Source: Burkholderia sp. TSV86
Lineage (GTDB): Bacteria > Pseudomonadota > Gammaproteobacteria > Burkholderiales > Burkholderiaceae
DNA length: 64,000 nt
Assembly (NCBI RefSeq): GCF_001522865.1
Contig: NZ_LOWB01000116.1
Span: 186,001-250,000 of the forward strand
Reading direction: 5' to 3'
The notes under the pieces were generated by a model. The model was not told the DNA's origin, did no database searches, and was given only the letters and a program-made list of their open reading frames with translations. Shown piece after piece: positions 49,136 to 61,814 of the stretch. A program made the translations under genes and the position numbers. Every line of letters starts with the position of its first letter. The stretch's first letter is position 1.

Positions 49136-50263
49136 CTATCGGCCGAAACTTCCAGTGCGGGTATCGTAGATTGAGCGGTGCGCGGCTGCGTCCAGCGGGT
49201 CGACCCCAACGGGCACCCGCCGCGCGAGCGCGCACATTAGCTCGTAGCCGATCGTGCCAGCCGCTTCTGCAACCTCGTCGACGCGAACCTGCGTGCCCCA
49301 CAGCTCGACTGCCGAGCCGACGCCGGCCGTCGGGCAGGGCGTCAGGTCGATGGTCAGCATGTCCATCGAAACGCGCCCGACCACTTGCGTGCGCACGCCG
49401 TCGACAGCAATCGGCGTGCCCGTCGGCGCGTGCCGTGGATACCCGTCCGCGTAGCCGCAAGCGACGACGCCGATGCGCATCTCACGTTCGGCGGTGAAGC
49501 GGCGGCCATAGCCGACCGTTTCGCCTGCCGCGACAGTTTGTACGCCGATGATGCGGCTCGTGACGGTCATCGCCGCGCGCAGCGGTACGTTGGTGATATC
49601 GCAAACCGCGCCCGTTGGCGATGCGCCATACAGAATCGTGCCAGGGCGCACCCAGTCGCGATGCGCGCGCGGATGCCACAGCACCGCGGCCGAATTCGAC
49701 AGCGTGCGCTCGCCAGGCAGGCCGGCTGCCGCGGCGTCGAACAGACGTATTTGCCAGTCGATCTCGCCTTCGTCAGCGTTCGCGAAATGCGTCATCAGCG
49801 CGATCTTGCCGATCGACGGTACGGCAGCCGCGCGTTCCCACGCGGCGCGGAACGCGTCGGGCCGGAAGCCGAGCCGGTTCATTCCTGAATTCATCTTGAG
49901 TTGGATGTCGATCGGCCGGCTCGGCTTGGCCGACGTCAGCATGTCTAATTGGTCCTGGCCGTGCACGGCAACCGTTAGGCGATAACGGTCGGCAATCTCG
50001 ATATCCGCCGCGTCGAAAATCCCTTCGAGCAGCAGTACGGGTTTCGTCCAGCCGAGTTCCCGCACGCGTACCGCTTCGTCGAGATCGAGCAGCGCGATTC
50101 CGTCGGCGGTGGCGAGCGCCGGATAGACGCGCTCGATGTCGTGACCATATGCGTTTGCCTTGACGACCGCCCATACGCGCGACGCGGGGGCTTTCTGGCG
50201 GACGAGCGCGAGGTTGTGCGCGATGGCGTTGGGATGGATGCGGGCGGCGATGGGGCGGGGCAT
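49136..50263 (-). CDS. alr: Alanine racemase
   Basis: A 375-residue PLP-dependent fold-type III racemase converting L- to D-alanine for peptidoglycan. The PLP lysine is in [12 protein letters not shown] (Lys35). [14 protein letters not shown] and [11 protein letters not shown] are barrel motifs, [13 protein letters not shown] is the phosphate/active region, and [16 protein letters not shown] holds the catalytic Tyr. The C-terminal domain contains [11 protein letters not shown]. Length and motifs match Alr/DadX. ATG 50263 was chosen at the family start. A DadX (catabolic) assignment would need a neighbouring dadA, which is absent. Confidence 0.93.
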
Positions 50264-50627
50264 GGAAATTTCTGCGAATGGACGAAACAGAGAAAAAGCG
50301 GCAACGAACCGTCGGCGAATGGCAGCAGTGCGCTGCCGGAGCGCCGGCACGTGCCCGCGATGCGTATTTTCCGTATGAGGCGAGATAGCCAGTGTTGCGC
50401 GCTATGATATGTCGATGTGTATGGTTGTATTTAACGTATTTGTCGATTTTTTAGTAAAAATTGGCGAAAGTTCTTTGCCGAGGCCCGCGCCGCAGCTAAC
50501 GGTTAATGTGCCGGCGATTGTTCGAAGGTTCGAGCATCGGCATTCGCGGCTAGCATGTCGCAGAGCGCGCCATAGCAGCGTACGATGGCGCCGAAGTCCG
50601 ACGAGTTTCGCAACCGGAGGCGTTGTC
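50264..50627. other. Divergent intergenic region alr/DUF427
   Basis: About 360 bases. The stretch 50,400-50,465 is AT-rich and probably holds promoters for the divergent genes. No gene, strong repeat or terminator is supported. Confidence 0.4.
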
Positions 50628-51008: not shown

Positions 51009-51173
51009 CGCGCATTGGCCAACCGGTGCCGGCGCACACCGCATCAGAGGTGCCAATTGCGCGTGCGGCATGGCGATGTCACAGGCATGTCCTATTCTCT
51101 TTGAGATGTTTTCCGTTGAGCGCATCGGCCGATGTAGCGCATGAGCCGAATCATCCTGTCGGGACGCAACGCA

Positions 51174-52412
51174 ATGACGAACCATGAAGAACCAGCGCGC
51201 GACGTCGCGCGCAGCCTCGAGCGTGACTTCACCGATGTGCGCCGGTATAGCGTCGAGTTGGCCAGGCCGCTGTCGGCCGAAGATCAGTCGTTGCAGTCGA
51301 TGCCGGACGCGAGTCCGACGAAATGGCATCTCGCGCATACGACGTGGTTTTTCGAGACCGTGATCTTGGCGCGGCATGCGCGCGGCTACAAGCTGTTCGA
51401 TGCGCGCTATTCCTACCTTTTCAACTCGTATTACGAAGCACTCGGCCCGCGTCACGCGAGGCCGCAGCGCGGGCTGTTGTCGCGCCCGTCGCTCGATGAC
51501 GTGCACCGCTATCGCCGCTACGTCGACGCCGCGCTGCTCGAGCTGTTGCGCTCCGCCGACGCGTCGTCGCTGCTCGCGCTCGAGCCGGAGATCACGCTCG
51601 GTCTGCATCACGAGCAGCAGCATCAGGAACTGATGCTGACCGATATCCTTCACGCATTTTCGCTCAACCCGCTATTGCCCGCGTACCGCAGCGACGCCGG
51701 TGCCGTGCCCGCCGATGCGCCCGCGCGCGCGAATCGCACGGCGCGCTGGATCGCGCGGCCGGGGGGTGTCGTCGAAATCGGTCATGACGGCCGCGGCTTT
51801 TCGTTCGACAACGAACGGCCGCGCCATGCGGTGATCCTGCAGCCATACGAGATTGCCGAGCGGCCCGTGACGAACGGCGAGTACGCGGCGTTCATCGAGG
51901 ACGGCGGCTATGCTCGCGCGGAGCTTTGGCTCTCCGATGGCTGGGCGCTGGTTCAGCGCGACGCATGGAAGGCGCCGCTGTACTGGATCGCGGCGGACGC
52001 GGGCGAGGGGCTCGGCTGGCGCGAGTTCGGGCTCGACGGCCTGCGGCCGCTCGCGCATGACGCGCCGGTGTCGCATCTGAGCTTCTATGAAGCGGCCGCG
52101 TATGCGCAATGGGCAGGTGCGCGGTTGCCGACCGAATTCGAATGGGAGGCGGCGTTCGACGCGCCAGGCATCGAACAGATGACCGGGCATGTGTGGCAAT
52201 GGACACGCTCGTCGTATGAGCCGTATCCGGGCTTCAAGCCGCTGGCGGGCATCGCGGCCGAATACAACGGCAAGTTCATGGTCGGGCAGCAGGTACTGCG
52301 CGGCAGCAGCATCGCGACGCCACCGGGGCATGCGCGCGCGACATACCGCAACTTTTTCGCGCCGGCCGCGCGCTGGCAATTCACGGGGGTGCGCCTTGCA
52401 AGAGAGCACTGA
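51174..52412 (+). CDS. egtB: Ergothioneine biosynthesis protein EgtB
   Basis: A 412-residue non-heme iron sulfoxide synthase. The N-terminal DinB-like domain carries the iron-ligand His residues in KWHLAHTTWFFE (His52, His55) and LGLHHEQQHQELMLTD. The C-terminal FGE-sulfatase-like domain has ERPVTNGEYAAFIEDGGY, PVSHLSFYEAAAYAQWAGAR (given in part), LPTEFEWEAAF and GHVWQWTRSSYEPYPGF. It joins trimethyl-histidine (hercynine) to a thiol, in ergothioneine synthesis. ATG 51174 and ATG 51141 are both possible. It overlaps the start of egtD. Confidence 0.93.
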   Translation: MTNHEEPARDVARSLERDFTDVRRYSVELARPLSAEDQSLQSMPDASPTKWHLAHTTWFFETVILARHARGYKLFDARYSYLFNSYYEALGPRHARPQRGLLSRPSLDDVHRYRRYVDAALLELLRSADASSLLALEPEITLGLHHEQQHQELMLTDILHAFSLNPLLPAYRSDAGAVPADAPARANRTARWIARPGGVVEIGHDGRGFSFDNERPRHAVILQPYEIAERPVTNGEYAAFIEDGGYARAELWLSDGWALVQRDAWKAPLYWIAADAGEGLGWREFGLDGLRPLAHDAPVSHLSFYEAAAYAQWAGARLPTEFEWEAAFDAPGIEQMTGHVWQWTRSSYEPYPGFKPLAGIAAEYNGKFMVGQQVLRGSSIATPPGHARATYRNFFAPAARWQFTGVRLAREH

Positions 52413-53388
52413 ACCGATCGACGACGCGGCGCACGATGCGCATGGGGCGATACGCGCGAGCGCATTTGGCCGCGATCTGCTGGCTGGATTGCGCAGCTCG
52501 CCGCGCAGCATCGCGCCGAAGTATTTCTACGACGTGGCGGGCTCCGCGTTGTTCGACCGGATCTGCGAGTTGCCCGAATACTATCCGACCCGCACCGAAC
52601 TCGCGATCCTGAAGCGTGGCGCAAGCGAGATTGCAGAGCGCATTGGCCGCGACGCGAATCTGATCGAGTTCGGCGCGGGATCGCTCTCGAAGATCCGCGT
52701 CCTGCTCGATGCATGCGCCGTGTCCAATCCGCCCACGCGGTATCTGCCCGTCGATATTTCGGCCGATCATCTCGCGCATGCGTCGGCCGCATTGCGCGAC
52801 GCTTATTCGTGGCTCGACGTGCAGCCGGTTGTCGCCGATTATCTGCAAGCCGAACAATTGAGCGTGATCGAGCGGCTGCCGGGGCGTCGCGTCGGCTGTT
52901 TTCTAGGCTCGACGATCGGCAATTTCTCGCCGGACGAGGCCGCGTCGTTCCTGCGGCGCATGGCCGTGTTGCTGGCGGGCGGCGGGTTGCTGATCGGCGT
53001 AGATCTGGTGAAAGACGTGTCGATCCTGCATCGCGCATACAACGATTCGGCAGGCGTGACGGCGGCGTTCAATCTGAATCTGCTCAAGCGGGCGAACGCG
53101 GAGCTGGGTGCGGATTTCGCGCTTGATGCGTGGGCGCATCGGGCGTTCTACGATGCCGAGCATCAGCGTATCGAGATGCATCTCGTCAGCCGGCGCGCGC
53201 AGACGGTGCGCGTTGCCGGCACTGCGTTCCGGTTCGACGAGGGCGAGACGTTGCATACCGAGAATTCGCACAAATTCACGGTCGACGGGTTTCGCGAACT
53301 GGCGAGTACAGTGGGATTCCAGCCGGTGGCGGTTTGGGTCGACCCCGCGCGGCTGTTCAGCTTGCATTGGCTCGAAAGCCGGGGGTGA
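52396..53388 (+). CDS. egtD: L-histidine N-alpha-methyltransferase EgtD
   Basis: A 330-residue SAM-dependent methyltransferase making hercynine, the EgtB substrate. Motifs: RSSPRSIAPKYFYDVAGSAL, FDRICELPEYYPTRTELAIL, LIEFGAGSLSKIRVLL (SAM loop), YLPVDISADHL, CFLGSTIGNFSPDEA and GVDLVKD. The only in-frame start candidate before the conserved domain is TTG 52396, which lies inside the end of egtB (17-base overlap). No ATG or GTG occurs in this stretch. The two genes therefore form a translationally coupled pair. egtC and egtE are absent, as in many proteobacteria. Confidence 0.92.
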   Translation: MQESTEPIDDAAHDAHGAIRASAFGRDLLAGLRSSPRSIAPKYFYDVAGSALFDRICELPEYYPTRTELAILKRGASEIAERIGRDANLIEFGAGSLSKIRVLLDACAVSNPPTRYLPVDISADHLAHASAALRDAYSWLDVQPVVADYLQAEQLSVIERLPGRRVGCFLGSTIGNFSPDEAASFLRRMAVLLAGGGLLIGVDLVKDVSILHRAYNDSAGVTAAFNLNLLKRANAELGADFALDAWAHRAFYDAEHQRIEMHLVSRRAQTVRVAGTAFRFDEGETLHTENSHKFTVDGFRELASTVGFQPVAVWVDPARLFSLHWLESRG

Positions 53389-53583: not shown

Positions 53584-54258
53584 CTAACGCTCGCGCGAAC
53601 GGCTTTTCTGCTTTTTGCTGCTGCTGCCGGCGCGTGGCGCGTCGTTGCCGGCCGCTGCGTTGTCGCCGGTCATTTGTTCGATCCAGGCGAGCGCATCCAC
53701 ATACGACATGAACTGCTGCAAATACCCCGGCGACAACTCGCGCATCGACAAAAGCGAGCGATGCACAAGGCTGCTCGAATTGAGCGGCCCGGCGTTCTTC
53801 GGCACCTGGTTCAACGATTGCCGCAACTGCCTGTCGGTGCTGAGTTTCGACCAGATCTGGCGGAATGCGCCGAGCATCTCGAGTTCCGGATAGGCATGAC
53901 GCGGGTGCAATGCGTGATGGGCGGGGTCGCGCTCGTCATCCGGCGCCGTATGCCGCGCGGCGATGTAATCGATCAACCGGCCCAACTCGCTGCGTGCGGG
54001 CGGATGCTCCGGCGCTGACGGCGCGGCTCGAGCGGTCCCGCCGCCGATGGACGCAGCGTGCCGTTCCACCGCACTCGCATAGGACGACAATGCTTCGGAT
54101 AACTTCTCGTCCAGCAGGCGGCGCGCCTCGCCGCTATGGTTCGCCGCGCGCCGATGCAGCGTGGCGATGAAGCGAAAGCGCACCGGGTCGAGCCGATCGG
54201 CGCCGTGCTCGCGCCACGCGTCGAGCATTGCTTGCGCACGCGCGCCGACGCTATTCAT
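53584..54258 (-). CDS. DUF2894 domain-containing protein
   Basis: A 224-residue protein: QAMLDAWREHGADRLDPVRF and RFIATLHRRAANHSGEARRL are the DUF2894 hallmark, followed by a Pro/Ala-rich linker. The second half contains ELEMLGAFRQIWSKLSTDRQ, SLVHRSLLSMRELSP and YLQQFMSYVDALAWIEQ. The C-terminus is Lys/Arg/Ser-rich. It has no signal or membrane helix, so it is cytoplasmic. ATG 54258 overlaps the OmpA-like stop by eight bases. It is the last gene of the four-gene motor-like locus and may be an adaptor. The function is unknown. Confidence 0.8.
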   Translation of the reverse strand: MNSVGARAQAMLDAWREHGADRLDPVRFRFIATLHRRAANHSGEARRLLDEKLSEALSSYASAVERHAASIGGGTARAAPSAPEHPPARSELGRLIDYIAARHTAPDDERDPAHHALHPRHAYPELEMLGAFRQIWSKLSTDRQLRQSLNQVPKNAGPLNSSSLVHRSLLSMRELSPGYLQQFMSYVDALAWIEQMTGDNAAAGNDAPRAGSSSKKQKSRSRER

Positions 54259-54898
54259 GGCGCTCACCGCCGGAAGCCGTCGCCCTTGGCACGGGCGCAA
54301 TCTCGACGCGCCGGTTCTTCGCGCGGCCTTCGTCGCTCGTATTCGCACTCACCGGCTGCTCGGAGCCGAACGCCGCGGCGAACACCGACGACGACGGCAC
54401 GCCTTCGCTGATGAACGCGCGCGTCACGGTCAATGCGCGCTGCGCCGACAGCTCCCAGTTGTCGGCGAAGCGGCGGTTGCCCGCATGCACTTGCTGGTCG
54501 TCGGCGAAGCCGCTGACCATCAGGATTTCGTCATGCGTCTTCAAGTAAGCGGACAGCGGCCCGGCGAGGCTCTTCAGCAGGTCACGCCCCTCGGGCTGCA
54601 ACTGATCGGAATTCAGCGCGAACAGAACGCTGCCGCTGATACCGATGCGGCCGTTGACGAGCGTCACGCGTCCAGCCGCAAGCGGGCCGGCGAGCGCCTG
54701 CTCGAGCGTCTGGCGGCGCTGCGCTTCCATCTGGCGCTGCTTGAGCGCGTCGTCGAGCCGCGACGACAACTCCAGCTGCACGCCAATGACGCTGACCAGG
54801 ATCAGCATGAATGCGCCGAGCAGCACCGACATCAGATCGCCGAAGGCTGCCCAGATCGGCGCGCCCGACTGCGCGCCGTCGTCGATTTCGTCGCTCAT
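54251..54898 (-). CDS. OmpA/MotB-like membrane protein (stator B-type)
   Basis: A 215-residue protein. A short cytoplasmic start leads into one helix, WAAFGDLMSVLLGAFMLILV (residues about 16-35), with an Asp (D21) at the position of the proton-carrying Asp in MotB and ZorB (pattern F-x-D-L-M-S/T). A coiled linker of about 50 residues follows. The OmpA peptidoglycan-binding domain (about 90-205) has LFALNSDQLQPEGRDLL, ILMVSGFADDQQ and RALTVTRAFISEGVPSSSV, ending in KNRRVEIAPVP. It overlaps the DUF802 gene by four bases (ATGA), so the two proteins are probably made in a fixed ratio. Confidence 0.88.
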   Translation of the reverse strand: MSDEIDDGAQSGAPIWAAFGDLMSVLLGAFMLILVSVIGVQLELSSRLDDALKQRQMEAQRRQTLEQALAGPLAAGRVTLVNGRIGISGSVLFALNSDQLQPEGRDLLKSLAGPLSAYLKTHDEILMVSGFADDQQVHAGNRRFADNWELSAQRALTVTRAFISEGVPSSSVFAAAFGSEQPVSANTSDEGRAKNRRVEIAPVPRATASGGERHE

Positions 54899-56997
54899 GC
54901 CGTCTCGGCTCCGGCCGATGCCCGCTGGTTCGCGAGCCGTTGCAGATCCTCGATGATCTGCTTTTGCGCCAACATGCTGAGATCGACGACTTCCCGGGCT
55001 TGCGCGACGTAATAAGCGAGTTGCTCGTCGCCGCGCGCGACGGATTTGTCGAGCGCGGCTTCGATGCGCTCCAGATGGGCGACCAGCTTGTCGTTCGACT
55101 GTCCGAACAATTGGACGGCCGCGCCGAACGCATCGCCGAGGCTTGCCACGTCGACGGCGCCGGCGGCAACTTGCGCGGCGGCCACGGTCAGCTTGCCGGT
55201 TTCGGCTTCGACTTGATCAGCGAAGCGGCCGCCGACGCGTTCGAGCAGATCCGCCGACGTCGAGACCAACGCGTCGATCGCCGTGCGTTGTTCGGTGCAC
55301 GCGTGGTTTACCGCGTCGAGCAGCGTTTCCAGCGTCGCAAGCAGGCGGCCGCGCTCGTCGAGCATCGCCGTGTCGCGGGCCAGGCTGTCGGACAGCCGCT
55401 CGCGCAACTCGGCGATGACGGTGGCCGCGGCCTTCGGCGCCTGCGCCGCGGCTTGTGCGAGCTGCGAGATTTCGGCGATCGTGTCGCGCGCATGGGCTTG
55501 CGTTTGCGCTGAGATGTCACGCGCGGTTTGCGCGAGCGTGTCGCAGATCGCCTGCTGCCGGCTGGCAGTGTGCGCGCCGGCCTTTTCCCATTCGCTGCCC
55601 AGCTTGGCGGCCATCTCGCCGAGTGCGTCGGTCCAGGCCGACAGCCGTTGCTGGTCTTGCGATTTCAATTCGGCGTGCCAATCGGCATGCGACTGTCCAA
55701 GCGTGTACAGCAATGATGCGCAATGCTGCTCGAAGGTTGCCGCGGCGGTTTCCAGCGCACGCTGATTACGCTCGGCCAACTGATCGTTGAGGCCGGCTTG
55801 TCGTGCGAGCGCATCGTTGCACGTCGCCGATATCGCGCCCGCCGTGGTTTCGACGCGTGCCGAAACGTTTTCCAGCAGGCTGGCCGAGCGTTGATCAAAG
55901 GTTTCCGAGAAGCGATCGAGCGCGGCGCGCAGATGTTGCACGAGTGCTTCGTTCGTGCGCCGATGCTCGGCGAGTGCGTCGTTCCAGACTTGCGTGGCGG
56001 CAGCGGCCGTCGCGCCGAAACCGCTCGACAGGCTGTCCAATTGCCGTTGGACGGCATGCGAGACGCTGTCGTGCAGCGACGCCGCTTGGCGTGCAAGCCC
56101 CGCCATCGTCGCTGCCATGACCGGCTGAAACGCATCGCCGGCAACACGCGCGCTTTGCGCGACGCTGTCTTTCAACGATTGCGCAACCGACGATGCAAGA
56201 TGCGCATAAGCAGTTTGCGCATTGCTCAGGAACGCTTGCTGACTGGCAACCTGACGCTCGCTTGCGTCGACGCTGCGTTGCTCGACGGCCGCCATCATCG
56301 CTTGCAGCCGCTCGACGAGAACCGGCATTGCTTCGGCTTGCCGCTGCAGCAATCTGATGGTTTCGTCGCGCCGATACGCGTGTGAGTAGACGTGCAACTC
56401 CGTGGCGATCTTGCCGTCGAGCGCTTGCGCGGCGGCGAGCCGTTCGCGCCTGCACAGCGCGGACAGCAACCCGAGCATCGCCGATGTTGCGACGCCCGCG
56501 ATCGACGTGCCGAACGCGAAACCGAGCCCGTTGACGGGCGCCGCCAGCGACGCGCGCACCGCCTGCAGGCTCGTTGCGCTTTCGAGCGCCGCGCCGGTGC
56601 CGCGCAGCGTCGCGACCATGCCGAGCAGCGTGCCGAGCATGCCGAGCAGCACCAATAGGCCGACGAGGTAGGGCGTCAACGCAGGCCCAGGCAGCGCGGC
56701 GCGTTCGCCTTCGATGCGCAGGCGCACCGCGCCGCGCAGGCTCGGATGCAGCCGTTCGAGCCATGCGCCGAGCGCGGGCGGCGGCTCGGACAGGCCGTCG
56801 AGCGCTTGCGACAGCGTGGATGTTGCTTGCCGATAGCGGTGCAGCTCGAATGCGCCTGCCAGATAGCAGGCGCCGATCAACGCCGTGACGGCGAGGGCGA
56901 GCAGGTTCGAGCCGGCATAGCCGGCAGCGATCCAGCAGACGACGGCCAGACCGGCCAGAAAGACGACGAGATTGAAGTTGAGGCGATGTCTGGACAT
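54895..56997 (-). CDS. DUF802 protein with MotA/ExbB-like core and long coiled-coil tail
   Basis: A 700-residue membrane protein. Four hydrophobic segments are visible, at about residues 9-27, 31-50, 108-128 and 158-180. The last two, with LVGLLVLLGMLGTLLGMVAT and NGLGFAFGTSIAGVATSAML, match the MotA/TolQ/ExbB channel helices. From about 185 to 690 there is a helical tail, rich in Ala, Gln, Ser and Glu, containing repeated DUF802 segments such as LLYTLGQSHADWHAELKSQD and predicted to be coiled coil. The architecture resembles ZorA (MotA-like core plus long tail). With the MotB-like partner it should form a membrane ion-driven complex. Its function is unknown. Confidence 0.85.
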   Translation of the reverse strand: MSRHRLNFNLVVFLAGLAVVCWIAAGYAGSNLLALAVTALIGACYLAGAFELHRYRQATSTLSQALDGLSEPPPALGAWLERLHPSLRGAVRLRIEGERAALPGPALTPYLVGLLVLLGMLGTLLGMVATLRGTGAALESATSLQAVRASLAAPVNGLGFAFGTSIAGVATSAMLGLLSALCRRERLAAAQALDGKIATELHVYSHAYRRDETIRLLQRQAEAMPVLVERLQAMMAAVEQRSVDASERQVASQQAFLSNAQTAYAHLASSVAQSLKDSVAQSARVAGDAFQPVMAATMAGLARQAASLHDSVSHAVQRQLDSLSSGFGATAAAATQVWNDALAEHRRTNEALVQHLRAALDRFSETFDQRSASLLENVSARVETTAGAISATCNDALARQAGLNDQLAERNQRALETAAATFEQHCASLLYTLGQSHADWHAELKSQDQQRLSAWTDALGEMAAKLGSEWEKAGAHTASRQQAICDTLAQTARDISAQTQAHARDTIAEISQLAQAAAQAPKAAATVIAELRERLSDSLARDTAMLDERGRLLATLETLLDAVNHACTEQRTAIDALVSTSADLLERVGGRFADQVEAETGKLTVAAAQVAAGAVDVASLGDAFGAAVQLFGQSNDKLVAHLERIEAALDKSVARGDEQLAYYVAQAREVVDLSMLAQKQIIEDLQRLANQRASAGAETA

Positions 56998-57007
56998 GAT
57001 GCTCCAG

Positions 57008-57763
57008 TTAGCGGGTGCGAAGGGCCGCGAGCAAGCCCTCGACCGGTTGAAAACGAATATCCAGCTCGGCGAGCAGCACGCGCTGCATGTCGTGGCGGAA
57101 CGTGTCGAGCCACGCGCCCGCTGCGACGGGCGGGCCGCTTTGCGAAGCCGGAGCGTCGGCCGCGAGCGCCTGCTGCTCGGCATTGCGCAGCCGCGTGAAG
57201 TACGTGCCGAGCAACGCGGGCACGCATGCCAGCAGTTTTTGTTCGCGCGCGCCGAGCGCCTGTTCCATGGCCGCATCTAGTGCGGCGAGCCGGGCGAGGC
57301 GTGGCGTGGCCGTGGCGAGCATGCTTCTCAAGCGCGCGCGCAAGGTGCCGATATCCATCTGCATCGCCTGTTGCATCGACAGATAATGCTGCCGGAATTC
57401 CGCATAATCGGCGGTGGCGGGCGCGGCGGCCGCCGCATCCCGCGCGACCGCGCGATGCGGCTGCGCGCGATTGCGCTTGGCATCGGCTGGGCCGACGATC
57501 GCCTCGGCCAACGACGCGCGCGTGCGCGCGCACAGACGCTCGGCGTCCCGGCCGGCGGCGGCGGGACGAGCGTGATCGGCCGTGGCCGGCGGCTTGACGT
57601 TCAGCGCCGACGACAGCGTGATCGCATCGGTCCAGCCAAGCCATTGGCTCAGCCGGTCGGACAACGATTGCCGGGGCTCGGGAACGTCGATTTCCGCCAG
57701 GCGAGCGAGCAGGCGAATCAGCGTGGGTCCGCTGAGCGCGCTTCGCTGCGGGGCTTGCTCCAT
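57008..57763 (-). CDS. DUF3348 domain-containing protein
   Basis: A 251-residue cytoplasmic protein. The N-terminal domain has LSGPTLIRLLARLAEIDVPE, LSDRLSQWLGWTDAITLSSA. The C-terminal part is helical and Ala/Arg-rich: YAEFRQHYLSMQQAMQMDIG, RLARLAALDAAMEQALGARE, LLACVPALLGTYFTRLRNAE and WLDTFRHDMQRVLLAELDIR. This is the DUF3348 family, which I know only from loci with DUF802. It is the first gene of the locus, 10 bases before DUF802. A regulatory or assembly role is possible but unproven. Confidence 0.82.
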   Translation of the reverse strand: MEQAPQRSALSGPTLIRLLARLAEIDVPEPRQSLSDRLSQWLGWTDAITLSSALNVKPPATADHARPAAAGRDAERLCARTRASLAEAIVGPADAKRNRAQPHRAVARDAAAAAPATADYAEFRQHYLSMQQAMQMDIGTLRARLRSMLATATPRLARLAALDAAMEQALGAREQKLLACVPALLGTYFTRLRNAEQQALAADAPASQSGPPVAAGAWLDTFRHDMQRVLLAELDIRFQPVEGLLAALRTR

Positions 57764-58155: not shown

Positions 58156-61100
58156 TCAGCCGCCCACTGTCATCGCAAACACGTGCTGGCGTCCCCGATC
58201 GACCTGATAGGGGAACGTCACGCTTTTCACGGGCCGCGCCGGATCGAGCGGCTGCGTCCACTGGAACACTTTGGCCGACACGCCGTCTTCGGTGCCGTCC
58301 ATTCGAAGACGCGTGGGCGTTGTCAGTACGACGGTATTGTAAGGGCCGGGCTGCCGGCTGCCGCCATTCAAGGTCCAGTCGTCGAAGGTCAGATCGAGCG
58401 TGGCTTGGGTGCCGTCGGCATAGGTCACCACCAGCTTGCCGGTGGACGGCCCGTCGCTTGCGCTGCCGAGCAGCGACAGCGATTTGCCGCGTACCGGCGT
58501 GGTGAAGGTGATCGTTTGGCCCTGGACGATCATGTTGTCGAGCTCGGTTTTGCTGTCAGGCCAAGCAAACGTCAAGCCGTTCAGGGTCAGCCGCGAGTTC
58601 GGCCGCACGCCGATCGCCGCGAGCGCATCCCGCGAATAGCGTGCGCCCGATCCGTCGAACGTATTGCCTTCGGCGGCCTGCTCCGGTGTCGAGCCTCTCG
58701 CGCCCGTGCCGACGTTGTTCAGCGCGTCGCCGATGCTCGTGAAGCCGTCGAGTCCGTAAGACGGCAACCGTCCCGCCGCCGCCGCGCCCCACTGCGACGG
58801 CGCGCTGCCCAATGCGATATCGAGCCGCGCCACCTTGCGCAGATCGTCCTTCAGCCAAACCCACGGCGCTTCAAGCGTGGCACCGTTGAGCGTGGCGCTT
58901 TGGATATAGCGCGATTGCGCGCCGTTGCCGGTCGTGTTGATGATGAGTTGCTTGTGGCCGTCGGCCCAGCGCACGACGGCCTTGTCGAACACGGGCGAAT
59001 GCAGCGCGAGCCCGCCGACCGACTGGATGGCCGGGTACGCGCCGAGCGCGGCCCACACGTACCACGACGAGACCGCGCCGAGATCGTCGTTGCCGGGCAG
59101 GCCGCCCGGCCCGTCATTGAATACCGGATCGATCCTCTCGTCTGCGTTGCCGTTGATGATGTCGCGCACCACCTTCTGCGTTCGCCACGGGGCGCCGGCC
59201 CAGTTGTAGAGCCACGGCGACGAAAAGCTCGGCTCGTTGCCGATATAGAAATGCGGCGGCGACATGCCCGCGTTCAGGTTCGAGAAGTAGGCGTCCAGCC
59301 GCTTGACGACAGCGTCGTTGCCGCCCGAGAGTGCGAAGAGTTCGCGCGTGTCATGCGTCATCATCCACGTGTATTGCTCGGCGTTGCCCTCCACCATGTC
59401 CTGGTTCGCCACCGGCGACAGATTCCATGAGCCGTCGTCATAGCGCGGCAGAATTTGCTTTTGTTGCGCGTTGTACATGTTTTTCCATTGCGCGGCGCGC
59501 GCGAGGAACTGGCGATACGCGGTTTCGTCGCCCAGCGATTTCGCGAACGACGCGATCGCGAAATCGACCGTGCTGAATTCCGGCGTGAGCGAGCCTGCCC
59601 ACCAGCCGCGGTCGAGCGAGACGTAGCCGCGTGTCAGGTGGTCGTTCATGCGGTCGTCGGCGTCGCGCGGAATTGTGCCGCCGCAGCGCACGACCCGCTT
59701 GTTGCCGGCCAGCTTCATGTACTTCAGCGCGCTCGCGGTATCGAACCGGGTCGCGCCGAACGCGTAACCGCCGACGACGGCGGGCACGCCGGAGTCGCCG
59801 GGCATGATGCCCTGGTCGACATTGACCGGCGACCAGCGCGGAATCGCGCCGCACTGTTCGGCATCGGTGACGAGCGATTGAAGCATATTGCTCGTCTCGC
59901 GCGGGAACAGCATGCCGAGCAGCGGCATCAGGCTGCGGTAGGTGTCCCAGTTCGAGTAGTTGACGTATTGCGTGCGGTTGCCCGCGACGCGATGAATTTT
60001 CTGATCGAAGCCGATGTATTCGCCATTGACGTCGCTGTTGACGTTCGGCGACAGCATTGAGTGATACAGCGCCGTATAGAACTTGCGCTTGTCGAGCATC
60101 GAGCCGCCGCTTACCTGGATCGTGTTCAAGCGGTTGTTCCATGCTTGGTCGGCGGCTTTGCGCACGAGGTCGAAGTTCCAGTTTCTCGCCGGATTCTCGG
60201 CGTCCAGGTTCTGCTTCGCGTTGGCGACGCTGACGTATGACAATGCCACTTTCATCAGAACCGGGCCGGATTTCGCGGCGAAGCGCACTTTCGCAATGCC
60301 CTTGCCGAGGTCGGTGGCGGACTTGTCGATGTTGCGATCGAATTGGATGTAGAAGTAGACCGTGTAATTGCGCGCTCCGCAGAAGCCGCCGCCGACGGTC
60401 GAGCCCGACAGTGCGTCGTTGCCGCTGTAGCCGATGCTGCCTTGCGTGGACGGTTTGGTGTTGGTGCGCGTCGCATCGATCACGAGCGTGGCCGGCTGCG
60501 CGTTGGCGGGAAAAGTGAAGCGCCCGAAGCCGGTGCGCGTGGTGGCGGTCAGTTCGGCCTTGATGCCGTCGTTCAGGACGACGCGATAGTAGCCCGGTGA
60601 TGCGGTCTCGTTCTCGTGCTTGAAGTTCGCGACCGGCTTGACGAGATTCGACGCCACGGCAGCCGGATCGAAGGTCGGCATGATCGGCAGTTCGCCCGAG
60701 TTGCCGTCGCATCCCGAGCCGCTCATCTGAGTCAGCGGAAAGCCGATGATGGTGTTCTCGGTGTAGACATAGCCGACCGGCGTATCCTTGCCGCCGCCGG
60801 GCTTGATGCTGGGCGTCATCGGCGACCACTGCACCATGCCGAACGGCGTGGTGGCGCCGGGGAACGTGCCGCCGCGCTCGCCTGCCGGCACGGGATCGGT
60901 TGCCCGCACGCTGGCGTTGGCCGTGCCGATGAACGGGTTGACGTATTGGGTGAGCGCCATCTGCACGTCACGCTCTTCGGCCACATCGCTTGCATTCGCG
61001 GATGCGCGGGCCGCCTCGTCGGGCGTGGGTGGCGTGGAATTCCCGGCGTTCGCCCGATTGTTCGCAGCGTTCAAGACGGCCGGCGAAGCCGTGCCGTCAT

Positions 61101-61170
61101 CGCCGTTGCAGCCGGCGAGCAGCAAGCTCGCGACAAATACCGCCAGTGCGGCATGATTGCTTCGTCGCAT
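58156..61170 (-). CDS. GH92 family alpha-mannosidase-like lipoprotein
   Basis: A 1004-residue glycoside hydrolase family 92 protein. The signal peptide ends in the lipobox LLLAGC with Cys21, so it is a lipoprotein. The N-terminal beta domain begins TQYVNPFIGT, followed by FPGATTPFGMVQWSPMT and a central (alpha/alpha)6 region: NYSNWDTYRSLMPLLGMLFP, VVGGYAFGATRFDTAS. Catalytic motifs: GNEPSFSSPWLYNWAGAP (acid Glu region) and GNDDLGAVSSWYVWAALGAY (Asp pair). A C-terminal beta-sandwich of about 250 residues follows. GH92 enzymes release mannose from glycans using calcium. A paralogue is divergently encoded. Confidence 0.9.
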   Translation of the reverse strand: MRRSNHAALAVFVASLLLAGCNGDDGTASPAVLNAANNRANAGNSTPPTPDEAARASANASDVAEERDVQMALTQYVNPFIGTANASVRATDPVPAGERGGTFPGATTPFGMVQWSPMTPSIKPGGGKDTPVGYVYTENTIIGFPLTQMSGSGCDGNSGELPIMPTFDPAAVASNLVKPVANFKHENETASPGYYRVVLNDGIKAELTATTRTGFGRFTFPANAQPATLVIDATRTNTKPSTQGSIGYSGNDALSGSTVGGGFCGARNYTVYFYIQFDRNIDKSATDLGKGIAKVRFAAKSGPVLMKVALSYVSVANAKQNLDAENPARNWNFDLVRKAADQAWNNRLNTIQVSGGSMLDKRKFYTALYHSMLSPNVNSDVNGEYIGFDQKIHRVAGNRTQYVNYSNWDTYRSLMPLLGMLFPRETSNMLQSLVTDAEQCGAIPRWSPVNVDQGIMPGDSGVPAVVGGYAFGATRFDTASALKYMKLAGNKRVVRCGGTIPRDADDRMNDHLTRGYVSLDRGWWAGSLTPEFSTVDFAIASFAKSLGDETAYRQFLARAAQWKNMYNAQQKQILPRYDDGSWNLSPVANQDMVEGNAEQYTWMMTHDTRELFALSGGNDAVVKRLDAYFSNLNAGMSPPHFYIGNEPSFSSPWLYNWAGAPWRTQKVVRDIINGNADERIDPVFNDGPGGLPGNDDLGAVSSWYVWAALGAYPAIQSVGGLALHSPVFDKAVVRWADGHKQLIINTTGNGAQSRYIQSATLNGATLEAPWVWLKDDLRKVARLDIALGSAPSQWGAAAAGRLPSYGLDGFTSIGDALNNVGTGARGSTPEQAAEGNTFDGSGARYSRDALAAIGVRPNSRLTLNGLTFAWPDSKTELDNMIVQGQTITFTTPVRGKSLSLLGSASDGPSTGKLVVTYADGTQATLDLTFDDWTLNGGSRQPGPYNTVVLTTPTRLRMDGTEDGVSAKVFQWTQPLDPARPVKSVTFPYQVDRGRQHVFAMTVGG

Positions 61171-61814
61171 GAATCGTCCTCGTGAATGATCGCATGGGCG
61201 CACCGGAGCTATCGCCGCATGCATTCGCGTTCATGTGGCCTCTCGCCGGCTAAGCGGCGGAGTCGAGATAAAGAATCGCATTCCTGATTAATCGAATCGG
61301 CCGTAAACGCAGGTGGATTCGAAGGCAAATGACATCTGCGTGCCGGGTTGCTTGCAAGCTATGGGATTCGTGGCGGTGCTGTCAAGGAAATCGCGTGATT
61401 GCAATTATTTAAACAAGCTAAACACCACGTGACGAACGCATGTGGGCGTAGCAGGTCGCGCTGAGACAAAGCGCCCCGGCGGAGGGGATTTTCGCCGGCG
61501 CGAACAAGGGGCGGGCGTTGATAACGGCAATGCATTCGCGTTCCATTGAACTACCGTGCAAGCTCTTTTCGGCAGGCCGCACATTTTCAGATGTGCGCGC
61601 GGACACAAAACATGTCCGCACAAAAGCTAAACTGAAGCGTGGCAGGGTTTTCCCAGATTGCCCAGCCGATCCCGAGAAACCAATACTGCCACCAAAATAG
61701 TCCGAGGGCCGTGCGTTCACGGGTTTTCCGAACGGCTCATCCTCTTCGGCCACGCCGGTATTGCAACCGTCACGGCATGGAATCGATCGCGATATTTGGC
61801 ATCCTAAATAAAAG
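61171..61814. promoter_or_regulatory. Divergent intergenic region between two GH92 genes
   Basis: About 640 bases, more AT-rich than the genes. It holds the promoters for both GH92 lipoproteins. An imperfect inverted repeat occurs near 61,593-61,623 (CGGACA / TGTCCG within TGTGC/GCACA arms). Short open frames on both strands lack domain matches. No terminator is expected here, and none was found. Confidence 0.45.

Follow-up and report, generated by a model that had tools for sequence, protein, structure and literature searches.

The window, which is the whole stretch of 64,000 nucleotides analysed here, carries a compact locus of four minus-strand genes for a stator-like membrane pair and two partner proteins. 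The question raised by this locus is whether it represents a new motor, a phage defence system, or a resident machine of the cell envelope. The first-pass annotation had called it an uncharacterised, distinct motor with novel accessory proteins. The locus consists of a DUF3348 gene (57008..57763, 251 aa; PF11828 3.1e-89; PADLOC 2.5e-96, 321 bits), a ZorA3 gene (54895..56997, 700 aa; DUF802, PF05650, 8e-28; PADLOC PDLC00650 E=0, 1222 bits), a ZorB3 gene (54251..54898, 215 aa; OmpA, PF00691, 2.7e-18; PADLOC PDLC00651 1.5e-116, 385 bits), and a DUF2894 gene (53584..54258, 224 aa from ATG; PF11445 4.7e-66; PADLOC 7.9e-81, 270 bits). The PADLOC scan of ZorA used a 793-aa frame, in which the match starts at residue 94. 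The likely ZorA start is at 56997, and the upstream in-frame start at 57276 is an unlikely gene start. Given this start, 10 bases separate the DUF3348 and ZorA genes; the ZorA and ZorB genes overlap by 4 bases (ATGA), and the ZorB and DUF2894 genes by 8 bases, exactly as had been claimed. The DUF2894 ORF has an additional in-frame GTG at 54348.

The PADLOC models match all four proteins as Zorya III components, so the locus is of an already known kind. The text of Payne et al. 2021 gave the name Zorya type III to a motor pair flanked by DUF3348 and DUF2894 and counted 6,401 such systems (PMC8565338). The window shows the same arrangement, with profile matches to ZorA3 and ZorB3 between flanking DUF3348 and DUF2894 genes. 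Judged from these matches, the four-gene locus is a complete Zorya type III cassette. DUF3348 is ZorF and DUF2894 is ZorG in the 2021 naming text, whereas the labels are reversed (ZorG3 and ZorF3) in PADLOC-DB v2 (models PDLC00652-00658). In the same paper, a locus from Stenotrophomonas nitritireducens reduced plating for one or more phages in E. coli BL21-AI, and protected from PVP-SE1 in liquid culture at MOI <0.1; the test used plasmid expression in a foreign host (PMC8565338). The words uncharacterised, distinct and novel accessory proteins therefore had to be given up, since the type was named and phage-tested in 2021. Defence was rightly listed as a candidate role, in view of the anti-phage effect of this homologous locus.

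Gene order and strand were constant in 129/129 complete operons. These were obtained from 145 loci searched, with some genomes present twice; the other 16 loci were short or cut at a contig end. This constancy is more than chance. Two loci (L102 and L103) gave weak DUF3348 matches (E 5.4e-6 and 4.1e-5) within longer frames, and none of the four cassette genes was detected in the surrounding 20 kb; the matching protein is perhaps an unrelated helical protein.

The membrane part of the pair has the features of a stator. A simple hydropathy scan located hydrophobic stretches of ZorA at about 5-30, 28-52, 100-133, and 160-182, the first two overlapping, followed by a tail of about 515 residues. 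This agrees with the long-tailed, MotA-like membrane protein that had been proposed. ZorB has a single hydrophobic stretch (14-46), followed by an OmpA-like domain of the peptidoglycan-binding type. The FGDLMS motif occupies ZorB residues 19-24, which places the membrane Asp at D21, as the annotation had it. This Asp is kept in 115/116 distinct homologues, so the conservation on which the motor proposal depended was borne out. The sole other row is L055, in which the ZorB N-terminus is out of frame through an assembly error or a real frameshift. The ZorA residues T123, T130, T164, S165, and S172 are present in 117/117 distinct homologues, and by analogy they may form an ion-path ring. A solved chain with a MotA/TolQ/ExbB domain (8vvn_C) is a sequence relative of ZorA (4.1e-5). 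The MotB-related chain 8vvn_B also matched (7.4e-4), with no single stretch passing. The 8vvn entry is presumably a Zorya structure. Together with the PADLOC matches, 8vvn_C supports the earlier view of a MotAB/ZorAB-type stator with two accessory proteins.

Beyond its motor part, ZorA is predicted to continue as a long helical tail, which ends in a conserved tip and contains PF05650 (DUF802). The tail was surveyed in 131 complete proteins, of which 117 are distinct, and the length of the distinct copies ranges from 643 to 1207 aa. Tandem expansion above the threshold was found in 79/117. It was absent in 38/117, several of which have weak repeats with scores of 10-20; the window ZorA belongs here as a short, unexpanded form of 700 aa with a repeat score of 5. 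The tandem units are 40-149 residues long, and each comes close to an integer number of helical turns if a turn takes 3.63 residues. The commonest sizes are 80 residues (39 proteins) and 87 (26), followed by 69 (3); the rarer sizes are 98, 131, and 149 (2 each), and 94, 58, 51, 44, and 40 (one each). The arrays of 80- or 87-residue units start at ZorA residues 417-449, with one exception at 581, and stop 175-234 residues short of the C-terminus. Some other unit classes sit closer to the membrane. Neighbouring units are 75-93% identical in DNA (19 loci checked).

The unit lengths follow the helical register closely. At 3.636 residues per turn, each of the 11 unit lengths deviates from an integer number of turns by no more than 0.15. 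The best period was 3.632, matched by 0/20,000 random sets over the scanned periods, although the choice of the best-matching lag within a coil could favour in-register lags, and the lengths are non-independent events (69/80 and 87/98 differ by 11). The nine unit lengths with at least 70% identity gave the same period (3.634; 0/5,000 random sets). As a separate measure, the hydrophobic period of the expanded stretch in 56 proteins peaks at 3.64. In a second genus, held out as a check and with ZorA of 695-853 aa in 20 fetched loci, the one clear unit is 102 residues, or 28.08 turns. In 30 base-length ZorA proteins (643-722 aa), TM3-4 is the most conserved region (0.93, vs 0.72 for TM1-2), and within the tail the tip (0.85) exceeds both the proximal part (0.72) and the middle (0.74). 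These features fit a tail that would form one continuous helical shaft, changing length only in register and keeping a protected working end. A helix rises about 0.15 nm per residue; on this basis, the predicted shaft length comes to about 77 nm for the window ZorA, against about 125 nm for the common form of 1015 aa.

The length differences are unlikely overall to be assembly artefacts. Among 41 copies of the genus of the window, ZorA is 700 to 1015 aa long. The 19 near-complete assemblies (five or fewer contigs, among 40 fetched) span 778 (2), 855 (1), 858 (1), 935 (3), and 1015 aa (12). For the window ZorA itself, in a 135-contig draft, a collapsed repeat is a residual possibility; its counterpart in the sister draft (L072/L116) has the same length of 700 aa. 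In the cassette tree, L060 and L063 pair as sisters (support 0.98), and their ZorA proteins of 855 and 1015 aa differ by two 80-residue units, so the unit number can change over short times. No report of variation in ZorA or Zorya tail length was found in the literature searched.

The two partner proteins are also predicted to be largely helical where the models are confident. The AF2 model of DUF3348 is all-helical with ten helices (pLDDT 85.9, pTM 0.81), and that of DUF2894 has a confident three-helix N-terminus and an uncertain C-terminal two thirds (pLDDT 73.8, pTM 0.41). No convincing PDB relative was found for either protein, and the hydropathy scan showed no TM segment in either. Their mean protein distances are 0.21 (DUF3348) and 0.28 (DUF2894), vs 0.04 for GyrB. 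Purifying selection acts on each of the four genes, with a median dN/dS (10 chosen pairs) of 0.26 for DUF3348, 0.13 for ZorA, 0.09 for ZorB, and 0.25 for DUF2894. No nuclease or helicase signature was found in the operon proteins, and the gene clusters inspected showed no fifth gene kept beside the operon across lineages. A recruited nuclease, which a published cross-type Zorya model suggests as output for all types, thus has no visible carrier here, and this is a point against reading the cassette as a phage-restricting motor.

Zorya systems use a stator motor for defence, and the step from rotation to output is at issue. Types I and II form a 5:2 ZorA:ZorB assembly, and they need ZorB D24, peptidoglycan binding, and the cytoplasmic extension of ZorA (PMC11890865). 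On the combined evidence, the type III cassette probably encodes an ion-driven ZorA5-ZorB2 inner-membrane motor that would restrict phages when the cell wall is disturbed. The cassette is read as a peptidoglycan-sensing rotor with a helical adaptor pair on its tail. By extension from types I and II, the OmpA domain of ZorB would catch damaged or displaced peptidoglycan, the channel would then open and let ions pass D21 and the ZorA Thr/Ser ring, and the five ZorA subunits would rotate with their bundled tail. For type III, we propose that DUF3348 and DUF2894 may act as a helical adaptor pair, binding the conserved tip of the tail and relaying the rotation. As the operon shows no nuclease, the output might come from a host factor acting in trans or from an ion leak. 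The tail length would be free to vary, because only the register and the tip must be kept. The motor proposal is supported by the conserved D21, the ZorA polar residues, the gene order (129/129), the in-register units, and the tip (0.85).

The same machine may have another main task. The cassette might be a resident envelope motor that mainly senses or relieves cell-wall or envelope stress; phage restriction would then be a side effect, either of over-expression or of that sensing. This is a possibility of some substance, though an unlikely one, and the distribution of the cassette bears on it from both sides. In its favour, DUF3348 is a single-copy core gene of the genus (64/65 genomes, including 64/64 of those at least 90% complete). 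The lone negative genome is 82% complete in 1,100 contigs; among the positives, the DUF3348 match of G348 covers positions 1-99 only. All four genes were present in 40/40 loci fetched from the 64 positive genomes, one of them with ZorB partly out of frame. The gene is likewise core in the second genus, which belongs to another order (87/91 genomes; 83/86 of those at least 90% complete), with all four genes in 20/20 loci fetched from the 87 positive genomes. However, the three near-complete genomes of the second genus that lack DUF3348 speak against the envelope motor, and show that the cassette is non-essential there. The patchy occurrence across the order (17/300 above cut-off) also weighs against it; the count across the phylum was 19/398. 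At the family level, DUF3348 was found in 171/249 genomes; among 20 listed of the 78 misses, 17 genomes are 2.6 Mb or smaller and 3 are larger. The rapid evolution of DUF3348 and DUF2894, as would fit an arms race, and the published anti-phage effect of the homologous locus (PMC8565338) are further points against an envelope role, whereas the purifying selection (median dN/dS 0.09-0.26) is in line with it.

The mode of inheritance is also consistent with a resident machine. Cassette distances track gyrB across all four genes (Mantel r 0.86-0.91; 40 taxa; 0/999), in keeping with the envelope motor. Only 8/37 tree splits agree with gyrB (shuffled mean 0.3, maximum 2), and of 26 gyrB splits with good support, 19 conflict with a cassette split that is itself well supported. 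With such frequent conflict, exchange within the genus by recombination among close relatives, or noise from the one marker gene, is likely. The core carriage, the gyrB-tracking distances, and the mostly fixed neighbours do not favour a recent arrival of the cassette in the genus. No DUF3348 match was found in 50,697 phage records, which again suits the envelope motor, and a related DUF3348 is encoded in 27/72,556 plasmid records, the 20 listed being large replicons of 0.59-3.5 Mb. The type I ZorA model (NF033914) was considered as a yardstick of scatter and dropped, with none above cut-off in 65 genomes of the genus; the count in the second genus was 0/91. At E<=0.001 the model matched in 34/65 genomes of the genus, all below cut-off. 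Near-full-length weak rows were found in 3/65 (43-49 bits vs a 190-bit cut-off) and in 0/91 of the second genus, and these three may represent another ZorA-like family. The remaining rows are short stretches, some of which are the type III ZorA itself.

Neighbouring genes were called from frames of at least 100 aa with GC-rich third positions only. In 35/40 genus loci, a common oxidoreductase gene is found inside the fetched 20 kb, and 33 of these 35 additionally carry an FMN-reductase gene or either of two further shared genes. In the other five loci and in the window, the cassette is sited elsewhere. The cassettes of the window and its sister lie between egtBD-like genes and a GH92 gene. In the window, a gene with an FGE-sulfatase domain adjoins a Methyltransf_33 histidine methyltransferase gene (51141-53388, plus strand) beside the cassette, a pair that we take to be EgtB/EgtD-like (ergothioneine). 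An alanine racemase gene (49136-50350, minus strand) and the GH92 glycosidase gene (58156-61224, minus strand) are further neighbours. PADLOC matched none of the 6 window neighbours and none of the 4 conserved genus-context neighbours, so the suggestion that defence genes might adjoin the locus was not borne out in these ten genes, among which there is no sign of a defence island. The mostly fixed genus neighbours, with no PADLOC match in the four scanned, count for the envelope motor. Near-universal single-copy carriage with mostly fixed neighbours (35/40) is unusual for a defence system, and the distribution of Zorya III resembles that of a resident machine more than that of a mobile defence gene.

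A broader reading may be offered tentatively, as a doubtful one. Zorya III might be a resident, vertically kept, nuclease-free rotary machine, in which an adjustable shaft of 75-150 nm works the adaptor pair. The peptidoglycan-anchored motor would read the envelope state, and its shaft would have been lengthened repeatedly in whole helical turns. Defence would be one use of this machine, and types I and II might be mobile offshoots that added nucleases. With no nuclease seen and a natural series of ZorA lengths, type III makes the role of tail length testable, as well as the choice between a defence gene and a resident envelope motor. The core distribution is a caution against scoring every Zorya III hit in defence-gene surveys as acquired immunity. 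For a supposed defence motor, the resident distribution and the in-register lengthening of the tail merit a second look.

The models might instead have given a wrong name to a plain flagellar or Tol/Exb-type stator. The MotB-like OmpA domain and several MotB models that are weak relatives in NCBIfam suggest this, but it is very improbable, as the MotB and TssL models all fall under cut-off among the best 25 of 39 NCBIfam rows, the MotA_ExbB/TolQ Pfam domain has no match in ZorA at E<=1, and the long tail and two dedicated partners occur in 129/129 complete operons. Among the same 25 rows, only PRK09040 (hypothetical protein) passes, with 389 vs 194 bits. The cassette resembles MotAB, TolQR, and ExbBD in its MotA-like pore protein and its one-TM partner with a membrane Asp, and differs from them in the long cytoplasmic tail of ZorA. 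An OmpA domain is shared with MotB, unlike TolR and ExbD. ZorAB appears as a remote homologue in the text of an mBio 2025 paper on MotAB (PMC12505986), which makes no mention of DUF802. With Zorya types I and II, the cassette shares the ZorA/ZorB motor core, the membrane Asp of ZorB, the OmpA-type domain, and the long ZorA tail. Unlike these types, no ZorC and ZorD or ZorE partner was found among the proteins scanned with PADLOC: the operon proteins match the ZorA, ZorB, ZorF, and ZorG models only, and the 6 window neighbours are unmatched. With the Zorya type III of Payne et al. 2021, the identical four families are shared in one operon, with no difference in gene content. The core distribution, the stepwise tail length, and the helical models of the two extra proteins are new beyond the published type.
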